From a virus, in the IMG/VR virus record IMGVR_UViG_3300025545_000024, positions 1 to 22,043 of that record: a stretch of DNA of 22,043 bases. The stretch is one strand, 5' to 3'. Every line of letters starts with the position of its first letter. Position 1 is the stretch's first letter. Under the pieces are notes generated by a model. That model searched no databases and had not been told where the DNA came from. It worked only from the letters and a program-made list of their open reading frames with translations. Position numbers and translations under genes: made by a program. Shown here one piece after another: positions 5,062-22,043 of the stretch.

Positions 5062-6126
5062 ATGAAAAATATCAAGTATAATATCTTGATATGTTTATTT
5101 ATTATGTTTATAGGTGTCAAGTTTAACATATCAGCACAAGAAAACGGATCATTTGAAAATGTTATTAAAAAAGCAAACCAATCAGTAGTATTGTTATCTA
5201 CGAATCCTAATGCAGACCCAGAAACGAACGCATCACGTACTGGTTTATGTACTGGAACAGTTGTTGATAATATAGGTCATGTTATTACTAATTTTCATTG
5301 TATTTACAAACAAAATTATATAAAATTATATTATCACGAGCAAACTGATTGGAGAGAGTATGAAATAAAGATAATAGGTGTTGATCCCCTTGCTGATTTA
5401 GCTTTACTTAAAATTATAGGAAAAAAAGAACCGATTCCTTATCTTGAATTTGTAAAAGACACCAATGCAATATCAGTAGGTGCTGATGTTTTCGCCATAG
5501 GCCATCCTATGGGAATGATTTGGTCTGTAACCAAAGGAATTGTTTCTAGCATTGACCGATTTGTAGGACATCCTTTTATCAAAGCGATACAGACTGATTC
5601 CGCGATCAATAAAGGAAATTCTGGAGGCCCTCTTCTGAATATGAAAGGAGAAATTGTAGGAATCAATACGTTAATCGTTTCTACAATCTCTGAAAATGCA
5701 GGAATTGGTTTAGCGATTAGAAGCGATATTGTAAAAACGTCTTTAAATTCTATGTTAATGTTTGGAAAAGTCGATAGACCAGCAATTGGTGTTATGGTTG
5801 TACCATTAAATCTGAAAAAACAAAGAGAAAAAATTATAACAAAATTTCCTGAAATTGACCCAGAATTCGTTCCGAATACGTTTGGGGTATTCGTATTGCC
5901 TAATGACAGTTTTCCGCCGGACTTAAATAAATTTGATACCATTATTGGAATTAATGGTGTAATTATTAATACTGGATTACAGTTTTCAAATGAAATATAC
6001 AAATATAATATAGGAGAGACGGTCGCATTAACGATTGTGAGAAAACGAAGATTTCTAATTGTGAATGTTCTTTTAAAAAGACTCTTTATTAATGCAGATG
6101 TAATGTATGCCTCAATACGAGAATAA
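5062..6126 (+). CDS. Secreted HtrA/DegP-like serine protease with one PDZ domain
   Basis: A 354-residue S1C-type trypsin-fold protease. Residues 1-25 are a hydrophobic signal peptide with a plausible cleavage at SAQ, so the protein should act in the periplasm. The triad is visible: H79 (TNFHC), D112 (DPLADLALL) and S187 (GNSGGP, 185-190). From about residue 235 a single PDZ-like domain begins (RPAIGVMVVP) and includes FDTIIGINGVII. HtrA proteases degrade or refold misfolded envelope proteins. AAGGA at 5051-5055 supports the start. It sits between gp44 and gp62, splitting the normal clamp-loader pair, so it looks like an acquired host-type gene. The target is unknown. Confidence 0.9.
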   Translation: MKNIKYNILICLFIMFIGVKFNISAQENGSFENVIKKANQSVVLLSTNPNADPETNASRTGLCTGTVVDNIGHVITNFHCIYKQNYIKLYYHEQTDWREYEIKIIGVDPLADLALLKIIGKKEPIPYLEFVKDTNAISVGADVFAIGHPMGMIWSVTKGIVSSIDRFVGHPFIKAIQTDSAINKGNSGGPLLNMKGEIVGINTLIVSTISENAGIGLAIRSDIVKTSLNSMLMFGKVDRPAIGVMVVPLNLKKQREKIITKFPEIDPEFVPNTFGVFVLPNDSFPPDLNKFDTIIGINGVIINTGLQFSNEIYKYNIGETVALTIVRKRRFLIVNVLLKRLFINADVMYASIRE

Positions 6127-14093: not shown

Positions 14094-14813
14094 ATGTATA
14101 AATTTATGCTGATAATATTGTCATTCGTAGTAACAATATTTTCAAGTTCCTGCGCCCCCTATCCAGTTGTGGCGACAACCCCTGTTAATAAAATTAGTGA
14201 AAAAGTAGGACTGCCATTTGGTACTGTCATAACTCTTGGCGGTAAAAAAATGGTTGTAATTAGTCAAGAAAATGAAGAAGTAAGATTACAACTTTTCAAA
14301 CCTGTAATTGTAAAAGCAGTAATTCCTAAGGTAAAGGTTACTGAAATTATTTCTGATCTTCCAACGCCAGAATGGGAGAGTAAAACAGTTATTACAGAAG
14401 GCGTAAAAAATGTTCAAGAGTGTCTTAATCCTATGGGTTGTCCTCAAGACACTAAAACAGGTGAATGTCTTAAAGGATGCACTGAACAAAAAGTACGTGT
14501 TGAAATCATAGAAACAATCGTTGATTCGACAAATGTTATCACAAACGAAATAATTGATCCTGATGTAGTTTTAAATGCTTTATTGTTAATAGATCCCACT
14601 AACGGATCATGGAAAAATCATCATAGTCCACATTATGGAAAGATTACTTGGATATGTGTTTTGGCAAACAATATAGGTTTTCCAAAATCTGTAATAGCAT
14701 TGTCAAAACTGATTTATAATATTCCGGGCCTTCTAGACAAATGTAATAGAGCATTTGCTCACAATTCATTGGCGAATAGCTGGACAAATGAGTCAACACT
14801 GTCTTCTCTTTAA
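14094..14813 (+). CDS. Probable exported lipoprotein of unknown function
   Basis: A 239-residue protein with a lipoprotein-type signal: a short positive start (MYK), a hydrophobic run (LIILSFVVTIF) and an imperfect lipobox SSSC with C20 as the lipidated residue. This places it in the cell envelope. The mature protein has two strand-rich stretches (GTVITLGGKKMVVISQE, then VRLQLFKPVIVKAVI). Next comes a four-cysteine cluster spaced C-x5-C-x8-C-x3-C near residues 110-130 (ECLNPMGC, ECLKGC). The C-terminal 80 residues have a different, more hydrophobic character. I recognise no family. Envelope lipoproteins from phages can serve superinfection exclusion, but that is only a possibility. AGG at 14087-14089 is a modest ribosome site. 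Confidence 0.7.
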   Translation: MYKFMLIILSFVVTIFSSSCAPYPVVATTPVNKISEKVGLPFGTVITLGGKKMVVISQENEEVRLQLFKPVIVKAVIPKVKVTEIISDLPTPEWESKTVITEGVKNVQECLNPMGCPQDTKTGECLKGCTEQKVRVEIIETIVDSTNVITNEIIDPDVVLNALLLIDPTNGSWKNHHSPHYGKITWICVLANNIGFPKSVIALSKLIYNIPGLLDKCNRAFAHNSLANSWTNESTLSSL

Positions 14814-14835: not shown

Positions 14836-14843
14836 AATAAATA
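14836..14843 (+). promoter_or_regulatory. Late-promoter-like box before the cargo genes
   Basis: AATAAATA fits the NATAAATA late-promoter motif of T4-like marine phages, about 42 bases before the ATG at 14885. The surrounding TATAATAAATAG is close to the T4 late consensus. A small hairpin AATAGT/ACTATT follows. The site is AT-rich, so chance occurrence is possible; its place before head-type genes favours it. Confidence 0.45.
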
Positions 14844-14884: not shown

Positions 14885-16120
14885 ATGCTTTTATTTAAAG
14901 AATTTTTATTAGAATCTCAGGGTGCTAATAAGCACCTTGAACATTTAGAAGATGAAGTTTTAAACGGTGGATTTGATGGTGTAAAAAAAGCAATCACATA
15001 TTTAAGTTCATTAGGATCAACACTAAAAGGGGATTCTTCTAAACAAATTAAAATAACAACTAAATGGGATGGGGCTCCTGCAGTTGTGGCCGGAATCGAT
15101 CCTGAAACTGAAAAATTTTTTGTAGCCACTAAGCATGGTGCATTTTCAAAAGTACCCAAATTAAATTTTTCAAATGAAGACATTGAAAATAATCACGAGG
15201 GTGGGTTACAGGAAGTTTTAAAAGATTCTTTGAGATATCTTAAAGATATTGGAATGGATGGCGTTTATCAAGGGGATTTATTATACAGTCCACAAAAACC
15301 TACAACGATACAATCTATAGATGGAGAATCGCATATTGTTTTTACTCCAAACACTATAACATATGCGATTAAATTAAAAAGTGAATTAGGGAAAAAAATA
15401 AATGCTTCAAAATTAGGCATTGTTTGGCATACAAAATATACTGGTGAAGTAGTAAATCAAATGAATGCTACATTTGATGTAAATGTTGATAATTTTAAAC
15501 AAACATCAAGTGTGTGGTTTAAAGATGCTGAATATGAAAAAATGGACGGAATAGCATCTTTTACTAAAGAAGAAACTGATTCATTTTTCAGTGTGCTTTC
15601 ACTGGCTGGTAAGTTATTTAGAACTCTTGATAAGAAGTTACTTGACGGTATAAGAGATGATAAATATTTAAATACGCAAATTAAAGCATTTGCTAATTTT
15701 AAAATACGGCAGGGTAAACCCATTGGAAATGTTAATGCACATGTTATTGGATTGATTAAATATTTACAACATAAATTAACTAACGAGGTTGATAAATTAA
15801 AATCAGAAAAGGGCAAAGAAAATAGACGTAAAAAAAATGAAGACATTTTAAAATTTTTTACAGAAAATAAAAATGCTTTGAAAAACATGTTTCAAATGCA
15901 AAATGTTCTTATAGCCGCTAAAATGATAATAATTAAAAAATTACAAGATATTCAGCCCATGACAAAAACATTTATTCAAACCGATAATGGGTTTGAAATT
16001 ACGAATCCGGAAGGATTTGTTGCAGTTACAATTGCTGATGGAGCAATAAAACTAATAGATAGATTAGAATTTTCAAGACAAAATTTTTTAGCACCAAAAA
16101 CATTTGGGAGTAAAGCATAA
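14885..16120 (+). CDS. DUF6267-like protein with N-terminal capsid-targeting peptide and KxDG motif
   Basis: A 411-residue protein matching, by eye, the DUF6267-type family of T4-like marine phages. The first ten residues, MLLFKEFLLE followed by S, resemble the T4 internal-protein capsid-targeting sequence MKTYQEFIAE, and L8-L9-E10 before S11 fits the gp21 site L/I-x-E. This suggests packaging in the head core and trimming. The rest has TKWDGAPAVVAG with a KxDG-like site (K60-W61-D62-G63), FFVATKHG, and VYQGDLLY (127-134). These are reminiscent of motifs I and III of covalent nucleotidyltransferases (ligase or capping enzyme fold). Catalysis is unproven. AGGA lies 5 bases before ATG. Its stop overlaps the next start. 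Confidence 0.8.
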   Translation: MLLFKEFLLESQGANKHLEHLEDEVLNGGFDGVKKAITYLSSLGSTLKGDSSKQIKITTKWDGAPAVVAGIDPETEKFFVATKHGAFSKVPKLNFSNEDIENNHEGGLQEVLKDSLRYLKDIGMDGVYQGDLLYSPQKPTTIQSIDGESHIVFTPNTITYAIKLKSELGKKINASKLGIVWHTKYTGEVVNQMNATFDVNVDNFKQTSSVWFKDAEYEKMDGIASFTKEETDSFFSVLSLAGKLFRTLDKKLLDGIRDDKYLNTQIKAFANFKIRQGKPIGNVNAHVIGLIKYLQHKLTNEVDKLKSEKGKENRRKKNEDILKFFTENKNALKNMFQMQNVLIAAKMIIIKKLQDIQPMTKTFIQTDNGFEITNPEGFVAVTIADGAIKLIDRLEFSRQNFLAPKTFGSKA

Positions 16121-16533
16121 TGGAAGTATCAGAACAAAATCTCTTAAACAAATTAGGCGAATCTTATATGAAAATAGTATTGACTGAAGATGTTGATGCT
16201 CGATTAAAAAGATTAGCAAGAGAAGGTTTAATTAATCAAGATGAATATGCACTGTTTCTTAAAACAATGCAAGATTTAGAAGCCGATAAAAAGCCAAATC
16301 CAAAACAAAGAATGATGATTATACGGATTTTTGATAAGCTCCTTGGTCTAATTATGGGGGACAAGGTTGTGTATCAAAAGATATTGCAAACTGTTAAAAA
16401 GAGCAAAAAAAATAAAGAAAAAATTAAAGAAGATACTTTTAGATCAACTCATACAATAATTGTTCATGAAGGCATAGAATATTATGTGACTGCTGATAAA
16501 GAATTAATAGAAGTACCATCTTCATTTGAATAA
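16120..16533 (+). CDS. Small conserved phage protein of unknown function
   Basis: A 137-residue protein. The N-terminal 95 residues look helical, with the recognisable stretch RLAREGLINQDEYALFL and KQRMMIIRIFDKLLGLI. A short strand-rich end follows (HTIIVHEGIEYYVTADKEL). It starts at an A shared with the previous stop (TAATG), so translation is coupled to the DUF6267-like gene. It is probably made with the head-cargo genes. Unlike its neighbours it lacks a clean capsid-targeting peptide at the N-terminus, although VLTED lies near residue 22. I cannot assign a function. A similar small protein occurs beside DUF6267-type genes in related phages, from memory. Confidence 0.7.
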   Translation: MEVSEQNLLNKLGESYMKIVLTEDVDARLKRLAREGLINQDEYALFLKTMQDLEADKKPNPKQRMMIIRIFDKLLGLIMGDKVVYQKILQTVKKSKKNKEKIKEDTFRSTHTIIVHEGIEYYVTADKELIEVPSSFE

Positions 16534-16541
16534 ATAATTCT

Positions 16542-18524
16542 ATGAAGATTTATAAAAAGTTTTTAGTAGAAACAAAGCAAGAAAAGACGGCAATTGCAAC
16601 TTTTGGGAGAATGAATCCTCCTTCTATAGGTCATGTTAAACTTGCAAAAAAGATTTTATCAGAGGCAAGAAAGCATAAAGCAGAACCTTATATTTGCTTG
16701 TCTCCTACTCAGAATGCTAAAAAGGATCCTTTGGGTCCAGAAAGAAAACTTTATTATGTTGAAAAAACGATAGGTCCACATATTCATATTGATGTTAAAC
16801 CTACAGTTTTTGAAGCATTATCTGATTTGTATTCTAAAGGATTTAAAAAACTTGTATTTGTTGTTGGTAGTGATAGACTAAGTAAATTTTCAAAATGGAT
16901 ATCACAATATAATGGAGTAGAAGGAAAAGCTCATGGATTTTATGATTTTACAGATATTGATTTTGTAAGTTCAGGAGACCGTGATCCCGATGCTGAAGGT
17001 GCCGCTGGAATGTCTGCATCAAAATTAAGAGAGTTTGCAGTTTCTGGAGACATTGATAGTTTTAAAAAAGGTACGAAATTATCTGCTAAAGATACAAAGT
17101 CTATGTATAACGAAATTAGGAAGGCTATGAAACTTGAAACCATAAAAACGGAACAAATTAATTTGAAAGAAGCACTTCGCCCTGAAAAAGTACCCGCACA
17201 TAAAATAAAAGAAGGTAGAGAATTTCCCAAAACACCAGCAGACAAGAAAGCTCATTTACATAAATTATTTAAAAAAGTGGCAGATGTAAAAAAACAAAGA
17301 GAAAAAGATTGGGGCGTTAGCATAGTAGATAAAACCCCTAAAGGATATGGCCCTGATGAAGAAGCCCCCCCTGGAAGAGAAATACAAGTAAAAACATTAA
17401 AAAAGAAAGTGGGTGCGGATAAAGCATATGCGTTTGCTTGGGCGCAACATAATAAACATGGATTGCCAGAGGGTACTGGATTACAAGTAAAAATGGCTTT
17501 AGATGATGCAGGAGTAAAGGGAGAGTTTAAAGATGGAAAAGTTAATGTTCATAAAAAACATGTAAAAAAAGCACATAAGGCTTTAAAGGGAAATGTTTAT
17601 TATAAAGGAAAAACTCCTGATGTTGTGGGAGAAGATATAATTGATGAGGAAAAATTTTCGAATAAAATGATAGATAAACTGAAACAGCAATATGAGCCGT
17701 GGAGAGGGAAAAGAATTAGTTTGGGTAGAAATGTAGAATTAGAGAAAATAGTAAGACAACTTGCAAAAAATAAAGATGCATTGACACAACTTGTTAAAGC
17801 AGATATTCCTTTTATTTCTATGAATGCAAGACTAATTATGCATCAGGATCATGGTGTGCCTCTGAATAAATTTGAAGGAGTGGAAAATCCATATGCTAAT
17901 TTGAAAAAAGGACCGTCTAGAGCAACGATTCATAAAATGTGGGCAAATAAACAACAAGAAAAGAAAAAGAAAATGATGAAGTCCAGTCATCCAGGATATA
18001 ATGAAGAAATTATAATTGATGAAATGGGACATATTGTAAATATAAGTGAGGCTAAAGCACAGTTCACTATAGAAGAAAATTTAAAAAGGAAAGCAGAACA
18101 ATCAGGCATTTCATTTAAAATTTTAGAAAAAGTGTATGATCGTGGAGTTAGTTCGTGGAAAACTGGTCATAAACCAGGAACTACTTCTCAAGAATGGGCA
18201 GAGTCAAGAGTTAATTCGTTTTTAACTGGCGGCAAAACCAGATTAATCGCGGATGAAGACTTATGGAATCAAGTTAATTCTAAACACAGAATAAAGGAAG
18301 AAATGGACACAGATCAGGCATTTAAAAAATGGTTGGCTATTAGTGAAGCAGATGTAGTTATAGACACTCCTCAGGGCAGATATGTAAAAGCAGGAAATGT
18401 TGCTTCTGCAAAAATAAAAGCAAAAAAATCATTTAGGGACCATAAAGACAAGATAAAAGTAACTAGTAGACTTGCCACGCCTTTAGATAAAAAATATCTT
18501 CAACACAAAGACGGAGAGGCATAA
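16542..18524 (+). CDS. Cytidylyltransferase/NMNAT-like protein fused to extra modules, with capsid-targeting peptide
   Basis: A 660-residue multidomain protein. Residues 1-10, MKIYKKFLVE before T11, resemble the T4 capsid-targeting peptide. Residues 17-200 are a nucleotidyltransferase fold of the cytidylyltransferase/NMNAT type: GRMNPPSIGH (22-31, the HxGH-type motif) and GMSASKLREF (from 156, the ISSTxxR-type motif with R163). Such enzymes use ATP or CTP and release pyrophosphate; NAD+ synthesis is one option. L208-K209-E210 before A211 ends this module at a protease-type site. The rest holds basic regions, a DUF5872-like stretch (SWKTGHKPGTT to FLTGGKTR, about 531-565), and two further sites, I501-S-E503/A and I600-S-E602/A. 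No Shine-Dalgarno precedes ATG. A stop-start contact leads into the next ORF. Confidence 0.8.
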   Translation: MKIYKKFLVETKQEKTAIATFGRMNPPSIGHVKLAKKILSEARKHKAEPYICLSPTQNAKKDPLGPERKLYYVEKTIGPHIHIDVKPTVFEALSDLYSKGFKKLVFVVGSDRLSKFSKWISQYNGVEGKAHGFYDFTDIDFVSSGDRDPDAEGAAGMSASKLREFAVSGDIDSFKKGTKLSAKDTKSMYNEIRKAMKLETIKTEQINLKEALRPEKVPAHKIKEGREFPKTPADKKAHLHKLFKKVADVKKQREKDWGVSIVDKTPKGYGPDEEAPPGREIQVKTLKKKVGADKAYAFAWAQHNKHGLPEGTGLQVKMALDDAGVKGEFKDGKVNVHKKHVKKAHKALKGNVYYKGKTPDVVGEDIIDEEKFSNKMIDKLKQQYEPWRGKRISLGRNVELEKIVRQLAKNKDALTQLVKADIPFISMNARLIMHQDHGVPLNKFEGVENPYANLKKGPSRATIHKMWANKQQEKKKKMMKSSHPGYNEEIIIDEMGHIVNISEAKAQFTIEENLKRKAEQSGISFKILEKVYDRGVSSWKTGHKPGTTSQEWAESRVNSFLTGGKTRLIADEDLWNQVNSKHRIKEEMDTDQAFKKWLAISEADVVIDTPQGRYVKAGNVASAKIKAKKSFRDHKDKIKVTSRLATPLDKKYLQHKDGEA

Positions 18525-21500
18525 ATGAAACCGAACCCACTTCATGAAAACTGGAAAACACTTGCGCCCGGTTTATTCACAGAACCCGAAAACGATTTAA
18601 TATATAAAGAATTTTTAAAATTGAAAGAGCAAGGAGATGTCCATCATCATCATTATGCTAAAGACGATAATCCTGATGATAAAAAAAAACGTGAAAAAGA
18701 TGCTACTGCAAACGTCAAGAAAAAATCTAATAAATCAAACAATGATGATGAAACGCCAGCACAGAGTCGTAGTGAAAAAAAGAAAAAATTGGATCCTGTT
18801 GGCAAAGAAGATGGAGATATAGATAACGATGGAGATATAGATAATAGCGATAAATTTCTTGCAAAAAAAAGAAAAGCAATTAATAAGTCAATTAAATCTC
18901 GACAAAATACAAAATCTGAAAAAAGTATAAAATTATCGGGTAAAAAAGAAAAAATTGAAATTTACAAAGGAATTGAAGAAAATAAGAAACGATATACTAA
19001 AGATATTTTTGCTTTCGGTCAAAAAATTAAAAATCGACAAAGTGTTTTCGAATGCAGAAAAATAAATAAAAATTATGATGCAAATATCGAAAAGAAAACC
19101 GTTGACCTCAATGAAGGTGGAGATCAAATTTGGTTCAAAGGAATTAAAATGACTTTTGATGAATATTCTTTGATTTTTGCAACAATGTATGTTCCTGGCT
19201 CAAGAGTATTGCCAACAGAAGTTGCACCAGACAATTCCAAATATGGATCATTGTTGAAGAAATTGCCACGAAAAGATCAAAATTGGGTAGTATCATTACT
19301 CAAAGATTACATGAAACGTGGTGGGGTAGTTCATAAAGATGTTGTTAAGAATTTTGTTTTGAAAGAAGAAGTTGAACTTAATGAAGCACTTAAACCAAAA
19401 GATAAAGATGTCATACAGGCGTTTTATGATAAAGAAAGTTTGGAAGGTAGATTACTCTCCACTGATGGTAAGACATTAGAAAAACTTGGTATGGGTGGTC
19501 AAACAATCGCAGTGTGGAAAAACAATAAGATTGTAGTTACTGCTGTGAGCGATGTCAAATCAACAGATGAAATACTTAGATATATGAAAAAATCTATACC
19601 AAAACTCAATTTTGATAAAAAAAGTTGGCAAGAGTTTTTCGAGGAAGTTGAACTTGATGAAAGGCATGGAGGATGGAAGCCCGGCCCATATAACATTATT
19701 AATGTAACGACAGGAGAAATTCTTCAGGTAGTTAAAACTGGTACAGGAGCCAAAAGAATTGCAGATAAAATTAATTTTTCGCCCAAGACTCCCGATGATC
19801 AGATGGTGGGAGTATATCATGTGGACGCTAGAAATGATACGACAACTATAAGATGGTGGAAAAAGGAAAATGGAAAAAAAGTATATTATGGCGATTTAAA
19901 ATCAGTCAACTGGTCTAAAATTAAACCGGGCGCTAAATCTGAAGAAGTTGCTGAAGGATGGAAAAAAGGTAAGTATACAATTAAAGACGAAAATGGAAAA
20001 ATACTTGGCACATACAGTTCTGGTGGTAAAGCTAAAAAGGTAATGGATGACCTTATGCAAAAAGGTGATTACCCCGAACTAACTGTCTCAATGGTAGAAG
20101 AAGTTGAAGTTGCTGAAAAATTTGCAGGATGGATTGCAATATATGGTGGAAAGCAATTGGAAATTAAGAAAAGTGAAGCAGATGGAATATGGCCCGCAAA
20201 ACAATTAGCAATTAAACACTTTAAAGTTCCTAAATCGAAACAAGGACTTCTTGCGATTAAACCAGCAGAAGAGGAAGTTGAACTTGGTGAAGCCGCATCA
20301 AAATATAAAAACGAGTTTGTCAAATATGCAGTAGAAATTATTAAAAAACTCAAAAAAGATGGTAAGATTGATGACTCGACAAAAGATAGTTTAATTATAA
20401 ACACCATTTCCCCTATCATGGGTAGTATGGGTAGTCAACGTGAACGTTCCGTCTATAAAAAATACTTCCCAGACAAATATGATTTAAAACTTTTCGACAA
20501 TTCTGGAGGCAATCAATATGATTCGGAATGGTCATCCCAGACTGATGCTAAAATGGACACAATTGCAAAGATGGCATTGAAAAAATTTAGACAAAATGAA
20601 GAAGTTGAACTTGGTGAAATGTCATATGTAATCAAATACAAAAAGGCAAAGAATAGATATTTGAGTAACAAGTCCAGAGATGTTGATAACACAAAAGATG
20701 CACTCCAATTCAAATCAGAAAAAGATGCACAGTCAACACTGAATGGTTTAGATTATCAGTTCAGAGGCAATTATGAAATTGTTAAAGAGGCCAGTGATAG
20801 TTGGGATGAGTGGAAAAATACAAGAATACAATCTAAAAATATCTTCAGAATGTTAAAACAAAAACATAAAAATAATATTCCTAAAATGAAGAGTGGTTTA
20901 GAACTCATCTTTAAACAAAATAAAACAAAACCAGACCAAGAAAAAGTAATGTGGCAGGAATTTAATAAATTTTTCAAAATCAAAGAAGACGTTGAACTTG
21001 GTGAAGCCGCATCAAAATATACAATCTATCACAAAACTTTTACCTCTGCGGCAACTCATGCCAAGGATTATGCAGAAAAACAGGGGTATGATTTAGATGA
21101 TGGCGATTGGAACAGAGAAGTCACTATGGGCGGTGCTTCTGGAAGAGGTCGGCCAGGTGAAGGAAAGACCAAAAGGTTTAATATCGGGTTGGAGAAAAAC
21201 GGTAAACCACAAAAGAAAAGGTTACAATTTCAAGTCTTCGGAATGCCTAAGGGTTCATATGAATTGAATATGTATATTGAAGAAGTTGAACTTAGTGAAG
21301 CGGCCGTGAAAACAAAATTGCGTGATCTTTCTCAAGAATTATCCGCTTATGCAAAAAAACATAGAAATAGTATTGATAGCTTATATTTTAAAAAACTTGC
21401 ACAAATAGCCGCCTCAGGAAAAATTCCTTCCGTTCAGGACATTGATAATGAAATAGAACCACGAAAAATTGTTTTAGATATGATGGCTAAATCTTTTCCT

Positions 21501-22043
21501 GAAGAATTTATTAATCAAGATCATTCACAAAGTAAAGATTCGATAAAAAATCAATCCGGGCTTTTTTATGCACGACATGGAGAAAACGATGAAGTAAATG
21601 AAATAACTACAGGATTACTTAGTAGAGCCGCAAGTAAAGCCGAAGTTCAAGGGAGAGAACCCGGAGGTTCTGGTGGAGCAAGTGCAAATTATGGAAATAA
21701 CTCCGGCAAGGTAAGAAATAAACGGAAACTCCAATCAGTTAAATTCGCAAAGGCTTTTTCTAAAAAATATTTTAAAAACGAGGATAACATGATAGAAAAT
21801 TTAAAATCAATCGATAAAGAAATTGATAAATTTCATAGTCGAACTAAACACTTAAAATATCTTTCCGGGAAAGATCGTGATCACATGCGAATGTTATCAA
21901 GAAAAAGAGATGGCTTTTTAAAAAATAACGAAGTCGAAGAAGCAGTTAATGAAGAATTTAAGTCAAGAATTTCTAACAATCCAATAGTAAATAAACTTTA
22001 TTTGATGAATCAAGCAAAATCTATTGCAAAAGAAATCACGGGC
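18525..22043 (+). CDS. Giant modular capsid-type polyprotein, C-terminus beyond window
   Basis: The ORF starts at ATG 18525, directly after the previous stop, and remains open for all 1173 codons to the window end. Residues 1-196 are polar and basic, with HHHH at 40-43 and a calcium-loop-like DGDIDNDGDIDNSD (96-109). From there the chain is a string of small domains, separated by E-[ED]-V-E-L-x-E linkers. The glutamate before each predicted cut is E197 (VDLNE/G), E287, E379, E589, E698, E827 and E925; E477 and E531 have V in place of L. The sites fit the T4 gp21 consensus L/I-x-E, mostly followed by A or G. Near the start, YKEFLKLKE (27-35) resembles a capsid-targeting peptide. The modules are unrecognised. 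It was not listed as closed because no stop occurs here. Confidence 0.85.
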   Translation, partial: MKPNPLHENWKTLAPGLFTEPENDLIYKEFLKLKEQGDVHHHHYAKDDNPDDKKKREKDATANVKKKSNKSNNDDETPAQSRSEKKKKLDPVGKEDGDIDNDGDIDNSDKFLAKKRKAINKSIKSRQNTKSEKSIKLSGKKEKIEIYKGIEENKKRYTKDIFAFGQKIKNRQSVFECRKINKNYDANIEKKTVDLNEGGDQIWFKGIKMTFDEYSLIFATMYVPGSRVLPTEVAPDNSKYGSLLKKLPRKDQNWVVSLLKDYMKRGGVVHKDVVKNFVLKEEVELNEALKPKDKDVIQAFYDKESLEGRLLSTDGKTLEKLGMGGQTIAVWKNNKIVVTAVSDVKSTDEILRYMKKSIPKLNFDKKSWQEFFEEVELDERHGGWKPGPYNIINVTTGEILQVVKTGTGAKRIADKINFSPKTPDDQMVGVYHVDARNDTTTIRWWKKENGKKVYYGDLKSVNWSKIKPGAKSEEVAEGWKKGKYTIKDENGKILGTYSSGGKAKKVMDDLMQKGDYPELTVSMVEEVEVAEKFAGWIAIYGGKQLEIKKSEADGIWPAKQLAIKHFKVPKSKQGLLAIKPAEEEVELGEAASKYKNEFVKYAVEIIKKLKKDGKIDDSTKDSLIINTISPIMGSMGSQRERSVYKKYFPDKYDLKLFDNSGGNQYDSEWSSQTDAKMDTIAKMALKKFRQNEEVELGEMSYVIKYKKAKNRYLSNKSRDVDNTKDALQFKSEKDAQSTLNGLDYQFRGNYEIVKEASDSWDEWKNTRIQSKNIFRMLKQKHKNNIPKMKSGLELIFKQNKTKPDQEKVMWQEFNKFFKIKEDVELGEAASKYTIYHKTFTSAATHAKDYAEKQGYDLDDGDWNREVTMGGASGRGRPGEGKTKRFNIGLEKNGKPQKKRLQFQVFGMPKGSYELNMYIEEVELSEAAVKTKLRDLSQELSAYAKKHRNSIDSLYFKKLAQIAASGKIPSVQDIDNEIEPRKIVLDMMAKSFPEEFINQDHSQSKDSIKNQSGLFYARHGENDEVNEITTGLLSRAASKAEVQGREPGGSGGASANYGNNSGKVRNKRKLQSVKFAKAFSKKYFKNEDNMIENLKSIDKEIDKFHSRTKHLKYLSGKDRDHMRMLSRKRDGFLKNNEVEEAVNEEFKSRISNNPIVNKLYLMNQAKSIAKEITG
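18810..18844 (+). repeat. Tandem 17-base repeat encoding a calcium-loop-like segment
   Basis: GATGGAGATATAGATAA occurs at 18810-18826 and again at 18828-18844 (period 18). It encodes DGDIDN twice (residues 96-107), giving a D-x-D-x-D-G-D pattern like dockerin or EF-hand loops. Similar 'DIDNDGDIDxSDK' segments occur in other marine T4-like phage proteins, from memory. Confidence 0.75.
20277..20307 (+). repeat. 31-base exact direct repeat, copy 1 (polyprotein linker)
   Basis: This stretch, encoding V-E-L-G-E-A-A-S-K-Y, is identical to 20991-21021. It contains the proposed cleavage site after E589. Other linkers share the shorter core GAAGTTGAACTT. Identity over 31 bases at a linker suggests recent recombination or duplication of module ends. 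Confidence 0.85.
20991..21021 (+). repeat. 31-base exact direct repeat, copy 2 (polyprotein linker)
   Basis: Identical to 20277-20307, 714 bases apart (an exact number of codons, so in frame). It carries the proposed cleavage site after E827. Recombination between the copies would delete two modules without changing frame. Confidence 0.85.

Follow-up and report, generated by a model that had tools for sequence, protein, structure and literature searches.

A linker-separated polyprotein at the head-cargo locus of a T4-like phage, probably cut by the prohead protease

Background

Among described systems, those closest to the one reported here are the internal proteins IPI, IPII and IPIII of phage T4. 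Our subject is a polyprotein open reading frame (ORF) at the end of a 22,043-nucleotide stretch of DNA (IMG/VR record IMGVR_UViG_3300025545_000024, positions 1 to 22,043; hereafter the window), which is a fragment of a T4-like phage (Kyanoviridae). The T4 internal proteins are small domains that carry a ten-residue N-terminal capsid-targeting sequence (CTS), in which residues 4 and 7 serve targeting and residues 8 and 10 processing, with the spacing aromatic4-aromatic7-aliphatic8-E10, and they are cut by gp21 after L/I-x-E (PMC9026906); we read the N-terminus as MKTYQEFIAE|A. They have one domain per gene, whereas here many domains share one chain and the cutting motif is repeated between them, and it is the neighbours of the polyprotein, not the polyprotein, that match the CTS spacing.

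The polyvalent proteins of phages and conjugative elements also hold many domains per polypeptide, are mosaic and fast-changing, and have been predicted to accompany the DNA into the host (PMC5512222). Several distinct domains per chain and mosaic exchange are likewise found in the linker-bearing ORFs described below. For polyvalent proteins, an embedded peptidase has been proposed to do the splitting, whereas neither an embedded peptidase nor any recognised polyvalent domain was found in our chain with Pfam and NCBIfam. The two have no recognised domain in common, and the uniform linker of our chain fits a head protease. In phiKZ and SPN3US, gp21 relatives (gp175 and gp245, respectively) cut head cargo proteins after x-x-E, and propeptides there have several sites (PMC9026906, PMC10052503), but cleavage takes off these propeptides and releases no series of modules. 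Finally, the cyanophage cytidylyltransferase T4-GC190, a homologue of the gene directly upstream of the polyprotein, is found in virions (PMC3037559, PMC10665884, PMC9146016); it has been reported as a single enzyme, and the text searched mentions neither its targeting N-terminus nor a modular neighbour. In the open-access PubMed Central (PMC) literature, supplements aside, we found neither the linker nor a polyprotein processed by a prohead protease described.

The best reading of the locus, and in our judgement a probable one, is that the ORF encodes a head-targeted cargo polyprotein cut by a gp21-type prohead protease. The chain would be loaded into the prohead core along with neighbouring proteins that bear T4-type targeting sequences, and the protease would cut just past the linker glutamates (EEVEL-x-E|A/G/K). 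This would leave in the head some ten or more independent domains, each with roughly 50-110 residues, which would probably be ejected together with the DNA, perhaps to act on host processes or defences. The linker DNA would also serve as an exchange point at which phages swap modules in frame by recombination.

Results and Discussion

The polyprotein and its linkers

The polyprotein ORF begins with ATG at position 18525 and stays open to the end of the window (1,173 codons). The complete gene is found on a 56.7 kb contig (IMGVR 3300025614_000006, here L001; other loci are numbered likewise) that is identical over the ORF region; the protein has 1,413 amino acids (aa), its stop codon lies at L001:14242, and further small genes follow on its 3' side. 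Six heptapeptides of the form E[ED]VELxE are present, with E287, E379, E589, E698, E827 and E925 as their last residues, compared with a mean of 0.0006 and a maximum of 1 in 20,000 shuffles. Variants end at E531 (EEVEVAE), E477 (EEVAE) and E197 (VDLNE|GG). A sequence-only reading of the window had listed these six linkers and three variants, all of which are present, and had asked for the rest of the ORF, now recovered. To its list we add the candidate junctions IVKE755|AS, VNE1026, VNE1143, VKE1268 and LTE1357.

The junctions have the traits of gp21 substrates, namely L/I-x-E followed by a small residue: the residue after the cut (P1') is A, G or S at 69 of 113 non-EEVELDE linkers, against a background of about 21%. 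L-x-E|A is the motif of gp21 (PMC9026906), and the linkers share it with the sites that we read in gp23, which are known for T4 (FLTE|A) and predicted for Melnitz (LSE|A), S-CREM2 (LTE|A) and S-SZBM1 (LTE|A). This match counts against the proposal that the linkers are cut in the cytoplasm by another protease, of the host or a trypsin-like one of the phage. Such an enzyme exists, as the window includes a secreted-type serine protease coding sequence (CDS, 5062-6126), but its product starts with a signal-like hydrophobic N-terminus, and we consider the proposal very improbable.

Counting raw L-x-E sites was dropped as evidence, their number not being above that in shuffles, and single LxE tripeptides therefore carry no proof. 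The argument rests on the repeated 7-mer and on its placement at module borders.

Two modules were modelled with AlphaFold2 together with their flanking linkers, D from 7 sequences and H from 25. Both form compact cores, most core blocks having a predicted local distance difference test score (pLDDT) of about 85-90. The linkers on both sides of D and on the left of H fall below 50, and that on the right of H lies at 60 to 80. The models thus support the placement of linkers outside the folded domains in both cases, in line with the compact, linker-bounded domains that the sequence-only reading had expected. Neither fold search gave a PDB match at E <= 0.001, and for H the best VIA-align score, Z 5.4 to PAS/cystatin-like arrangements, is too weak for a fold name. 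No Pfam or NCBIfam family matches the 1,413 aa chain at E <= 0.01, and Pfam, PHROGs and NCBIfam assign no function to the modules in the window. The parts of the polyprotein and its upstream neighbours are listed in Table 1.

Table 1. Coordinates of the polyprotein, its predicted parts and the neighbouring genes in the window
Feature	Position	Strand	Remarks
DUF6267 CDS	14885..16120	+	T4-type targeting N-terminus MLLFKEFLLE|S
Small CDS within same locus	16120..16533	+	No family match at curated cut-off
Cytidylyltransferase-DUF5824 CDS	16542..18524	+	Targeting N-terminus MKIYKKFLVE|T; cyanophage homologue found in virions
Linker-separated polyprotein ORF	18525..22043	+	First 1,173 of 1,413 aa
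N-terminal region to VDLNE197	18525..19115	+	Starts MKPNPLHENW...; conserved QGDVHHHHY; start common to L144 and L148
EF-hand/dockerin-like module DPVGKEDGDIDNDGDIDNSD (aa 89-125)	18789..18899	+	Common to many linker ORFs and the gene after gp21 in L009
Variant linker VDLNE|G (E197)	19101..19115	+	
Linker EEVELNE|A (E287)	19365..19385	+	
Module A (aa 288-372)	19386..19640	+	94% identity to L007; 100% over 39 aa to L163; ~50% to L074/L118/L021
Linker EEVELDE|R (E379)	19641..19661	+	
Module B (aa 380-472)	19662..19940	+	No relative among the matches listed
Variant linker EEVAE|G (E477)	19941..19955	+	
Module C (aa 478-524)	19956..20096	+	98% identity to L007; also in L162 and L148
Linker EEVEVAE|K (E531)	20097..20117	+	
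Module D (aa 532-582)	20118..20270	+	Compact b-b-a-a-b model; flanking linkers pLDDT <50
Linker EEVELGE|A (E589)	20271..20291	+	
Module E (aa 590-691)	20292..20597	+	No relative among the matches listed
Linker EEVELGE|M (E698)	20598..20618	+	
Module F (aa 699-749)	20619..20771	+	No relative among the matches listed
Variant linker YEIVKE|A (E755)	20772..20789	+	
Module G (aa 756-820)	20790..20984	+	No relative among the matches listed
Linker EDVELGE|A (E827)	20985..21005	+	
Module H (aa 828-918, YTIYHKTF...YELNMYI)	21006..21278	+	Commonest shared module; relatives in at least 29 loci
Linker EEVELSE|A (E925)	21279..21299	+	
Module I (aa 926-1026, KLRDLSQELSAYAKK)	21300..21602	+	Directly after N-terminal region in L144

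Spread and exchange of modules

A scan of IMG/VR for DNA coding EEVELDEA gave at least 120 stretches. Among the matches listed and loci fetched by other routes there are at least 65 non-redundant ORFs, each holding between two and eight linkers. Together with the L144 fragment they contain at least 124 internal modules with a median length of 97 aa, which fall into at least 57 families, 45 having a single member. Among cultured phages, we read syntenic loci in HTVC008M (Pelagibacter), Melnitz (Methylophilales) and the cyanophages P-RSM1 and S-SZBM1; the block itself is also present in phage C48C1, and S-CREM2 has the cytidylyltransferase and LxE-rich neighbours elsewhere in its genome. The whole polyprotein had no tblastn match among INPHARED phages, and single modules matched weakly in Melnitz phages and HTVC008M.

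Homology between multi-linker ORFs is bounded by the linkers. It starts at a linker in 187 of 494 cases (82 +- 16 under random shifts) and ends at one in 167 of 382 (60 +- 12), and for neither did any of 1,000 shifts do as well. When two modules occur together in more than one ORF, 30 of 94 pairs stand in the opposite order. L144, whose DUF6267 and uvsX are 85% and 92% identical to those of the window, has the same N-terminal region of the polyprotein, and module I, at the far end in the window, comes straight after it. L148 (1,431 aa) has the same ends as the window and between them the order D-C-...-H-...-I, with one module duplicated. The sequence-only reading had proposed to see whether L-x-E is kept in orthologues while module content varies; these relatives and L007 do keep linkers at module borders, and both the content and the order of their modules differ.

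L007 carries modules A, D and C in changed order at 88-98% protein and 93-98% DNA identity to the window, whereas its core genes are only 69-71% identical in DNA, and its uvsX, gp41 and DUF6267 proteins 69%, 60% and 43% identical. The DNA similarity starts and stops at the linker DNA or a few bases away. A 142 bp stretch of module A recurs in L163 at 98.6% identity. The simplest account of these comparisons is that single modules have recently been exchanged horizontally at the linkers, and such near-identity in genomes that otherwise differ by about 30% in DNA suggests selection on the modules. The linker DNA itself is nearly uniform (GAA GAA GTT GAA CTT xxT GAA), its codons being more similar within an ORF than codon usage predicts (0.77 vs 0.56). 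Such uniform junctions would make modules exchangeable in frame, and recombination at the linkers would allow a fast turnover of the module repertoire.

Module H shows that the protein motif is kept where the linker is not. Among 25 copies, 23 are preceded by [LIVMF]xE at a distance of no more than 14 aa (background 0.26, P = 6e-12), and the sites vary (FTE, LEE, IEE, IDE, VDE, LKE, LQE). At its end, 9 copies have a stop codon and 14 the next linker. The upstream site is present in each of the seven copies whose loci were obtained independently of the linker scan (L134, L148, L162, L175, L209, L217 and L220).

These observations bear on a different proposal, in which the linkers are flexible joints and recombination points of an uncleaved polyvalent protein, the whole chain of which acts in the infected cell. 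Recombination alone could explain linker DNA conserved beyond codon bias, and polyvalent proteins of other phages can transfer as multidomain chains (PMC5512222). The protein sequence of the linkers, however, agrees with the gp21 motif, including its preference at P1', the LxE before module H persists despite differing linker sequence, for which copying at the codon level is no explanation, and modules that occur as single genes have a CTS ending in LxE. We therefore hold an uncleaved chain to be quite unlikely.

One linker-bearing ORF includes a RimK-like ATP-grasp domain, and enzymes thus ride in such chains too. A module with the signature FTRHFLDRVNDxRN, perhaps nuclease- or toxin-like, occurs as a CTS-tagged single gene at 9823-10212 of L007 (MMKTFKQHLNED) and embedded in a cytidylyltransferase ORF at 3097-6210 of L064.

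Head targeting and virion proteins

Both the DUF6267 protein and the cytidylyltransferase of the window match the T4 targeting pattern at its exact spacing. In its strict form the pattern is found in 52 of 82 DUF6267 homologues and 9 of 32 cytidylyltransferases, compared with 56 of 977 other plus-strand ORFs and 0 of 496 antisense ORFs. In S-CREM2 a pattern loosened slightly from three T4 sequences is present in 5 of 13 virion-detected proteins outside the structural region and in 5 of 122 undetected ones (p = 7e-4, from small numbers); the five detected proteins with the pattern include the cytidylyltransferase, a Cas9-like protein, a kinase and a SAM hydrolase. The product annotated as Cas9-like, gp12 (OR473000 7704-10313, minus strand; L139), is in virions and bears, close to its N-terminus, the T4-type targeting motif RFASFMAE|AA.

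About 20 short CTS-tagged genes share a domain with multi-linker ORFs; several are cytidylyltransferases, and others are true internal modules. For example, MISFSQYLKE|GDYPLYHK of a single gene in L209 corresponds to ...FTE|AKSDYTIYHK inside a chain in L023, and the single gene of C48C1 that starts MKKFKQYIDE is 79% identical to a module of L064. As the same domains occur both as CTS genes and as modules, the N-terminal CTS and the internal linker look like alternative carriers.

The cytidylyltransferase has been found in virions of S-SM1 (PMC3037559), S-CREM2 (PMC10665884) and S-SZBM1 (PMC9146016). Virion mass spectrometry has further detected gp139 and gp140 of S-SZBM1 (PMC9146016) and gp154, gp155 and gp160 of S-CREM2 (PMC10665884), although the authors of the latter study caution that strong expression might lead to co-purification with virions. 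Of the S-CREM2 proteins, gp155 and gp160 are LxE-rich and encoded near the cytidylyltransferase. S-SZBM1 gp139, detected by four peptides (PMC9146016), lies directly after the cytidylyltransferase, which is the position of the polyprotein; it is LxE-rich and contains a short module also seen in a multi-linker ORF.

The same data bear on the idea that the polyprotein is a sacrificial part of the core, an accessory prohead scaffold like gp22 or gp68 whose LxE sites serve shredding and expulsion and whose modules are idle after maturation. The gp22 proteins of these phages are full of LxE sites, and the EF-hand-like module recurs in the gene right after gp21 in L009. Along the chain no homology to gp22 was seen: only that short module is shared with the gene after gp21, and our Pfam and PHROGs scans gave no gp22 family. 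However, the modules are conserved domains, compact in the two cases modelled, swapped between phages and found as separate CTS-tagged genes, while the gp22 proteins that we read do not look similarly modular; moreover, mature virions of S-SZBM1 and S-CREM2 still contain LxE-rich proteins encoded beside the cytidylyltransferase or close to it (PMC9146016, PMC10665884). A sacrificial role is, in our view, unlikely.

Of 22 contigs with linker ORFs or the DUF6267 locus, 17 encode gp21 (PF03420), and none of the 13 that reach 70 kb lacks it.

Weighing the cargo reading

A number of observations weigh against a cargo polyprotein cut by gp21. The raw [LIV]xE count in the polyprotein is not enriched (27 vs 21 +- 4 in shuffles), nor is that of L/I-x-E-[AGS] (5 vs 2.9 expected), and one P1' residue is arginine (E379|R). 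The EEVELxE linkers are predicted cleavage sites throughout and would also suit an uncleaved chain. The polyprotein has no canonical CTS at its start and only a CTS-like YKEFLKLKE at aa 27-35, and a relaxed CTS is not significantly richer in multi-linker ORFs (12 of 65) than in other ORFs of the same loci (45 of 335). The relatives detected in virions contain fewer LxE sites, their modules are only weakly homologous to those of other multi-linker ORFs, and no module homology to the window ORF was detected in them. gp21 is absent from the window, and both gp21 and gp23 are absent from the 56.7 kb contig, so that the head genes of this phage are not sampled there. Lastly, the linker was itself the criterion for picking loci L011-L130, and statistics on linkers are inflated by this; independently found loci agree and are fewer.

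The sequence-only interpretation, a head-cargo polyprotein processed by a gp21-like enzyme, comes through this in part. Its modular chain, with linkers at the module borders and outside the two modelled folds, stands, as does a head-cargo locus with CTS-bearing neighbours; the cargo claim draws on the virion-found neighbour enzyme and nearby LxE-rich proteins of relatives, while the polyprotein lacks a canonical CTS. The cleavage, injection, effector activity and equal amounts of modules that it put forward are conjectural. The gp21 homologue that it anticipated is present in the relatives and missing from the window and the 56.7 kb contig. The polyprotein could be packaged through the CTS-like stretch at aa 27-35 or by another route.

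More tentatively, the cargo may be of a plug-in kind. The modules would be small effector or anti-defence domains, and the linker would combine a head-protease site with homology for swapping. A single gene would in this way load many effectors per head, and their repertoire would be reshuffled between distant phages; this is possible but on balance doubtful. If the cargo reading is true, a large and so far unrecognised repertoire of small domains would be delivered from the heads of widespread marine phages of the Kyanoviridae, relatives of Pelagibacter, Methylophilales and Synechococcus phages. The linker would then give a simple rule for dividing many hypothetical phage proteins into functional units, and CTS and linkers together a way to list likely head cargo from sequence alone. 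The old question of how T4-like phages diversify their injected proteins would become testable.

The surrounding genes

The gene order of the window is sliding clamp, clamp loader, family-B polymerase, uvsX and gp41, followed by the CDSs starting at 14885, 16120 and 16542 and the polyprotein ORF. The T4-type late promoter TATAAATA does not occur in the window, and AATAAATA, found at 14836, is no more frequent than expected by chance. The protease gene at 5062-6126 encodes a Trypsin/DegP-like serine protease with a signal-like N-terminus (phrog_11383, phrog_9683). Between gp41 and the head-cargo locus lies a lipoprotein-like CDS (14094-14813, FSSSCAPYPV) that has no family match and is also present in L144. 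Contigs L001 and L003, whose phages are otherwise nearly identical, differ by a single repeat unit in a structural gene rich in repeats (L001 16054-18387, 777 aa; L003 4638-7070, 810 aa).

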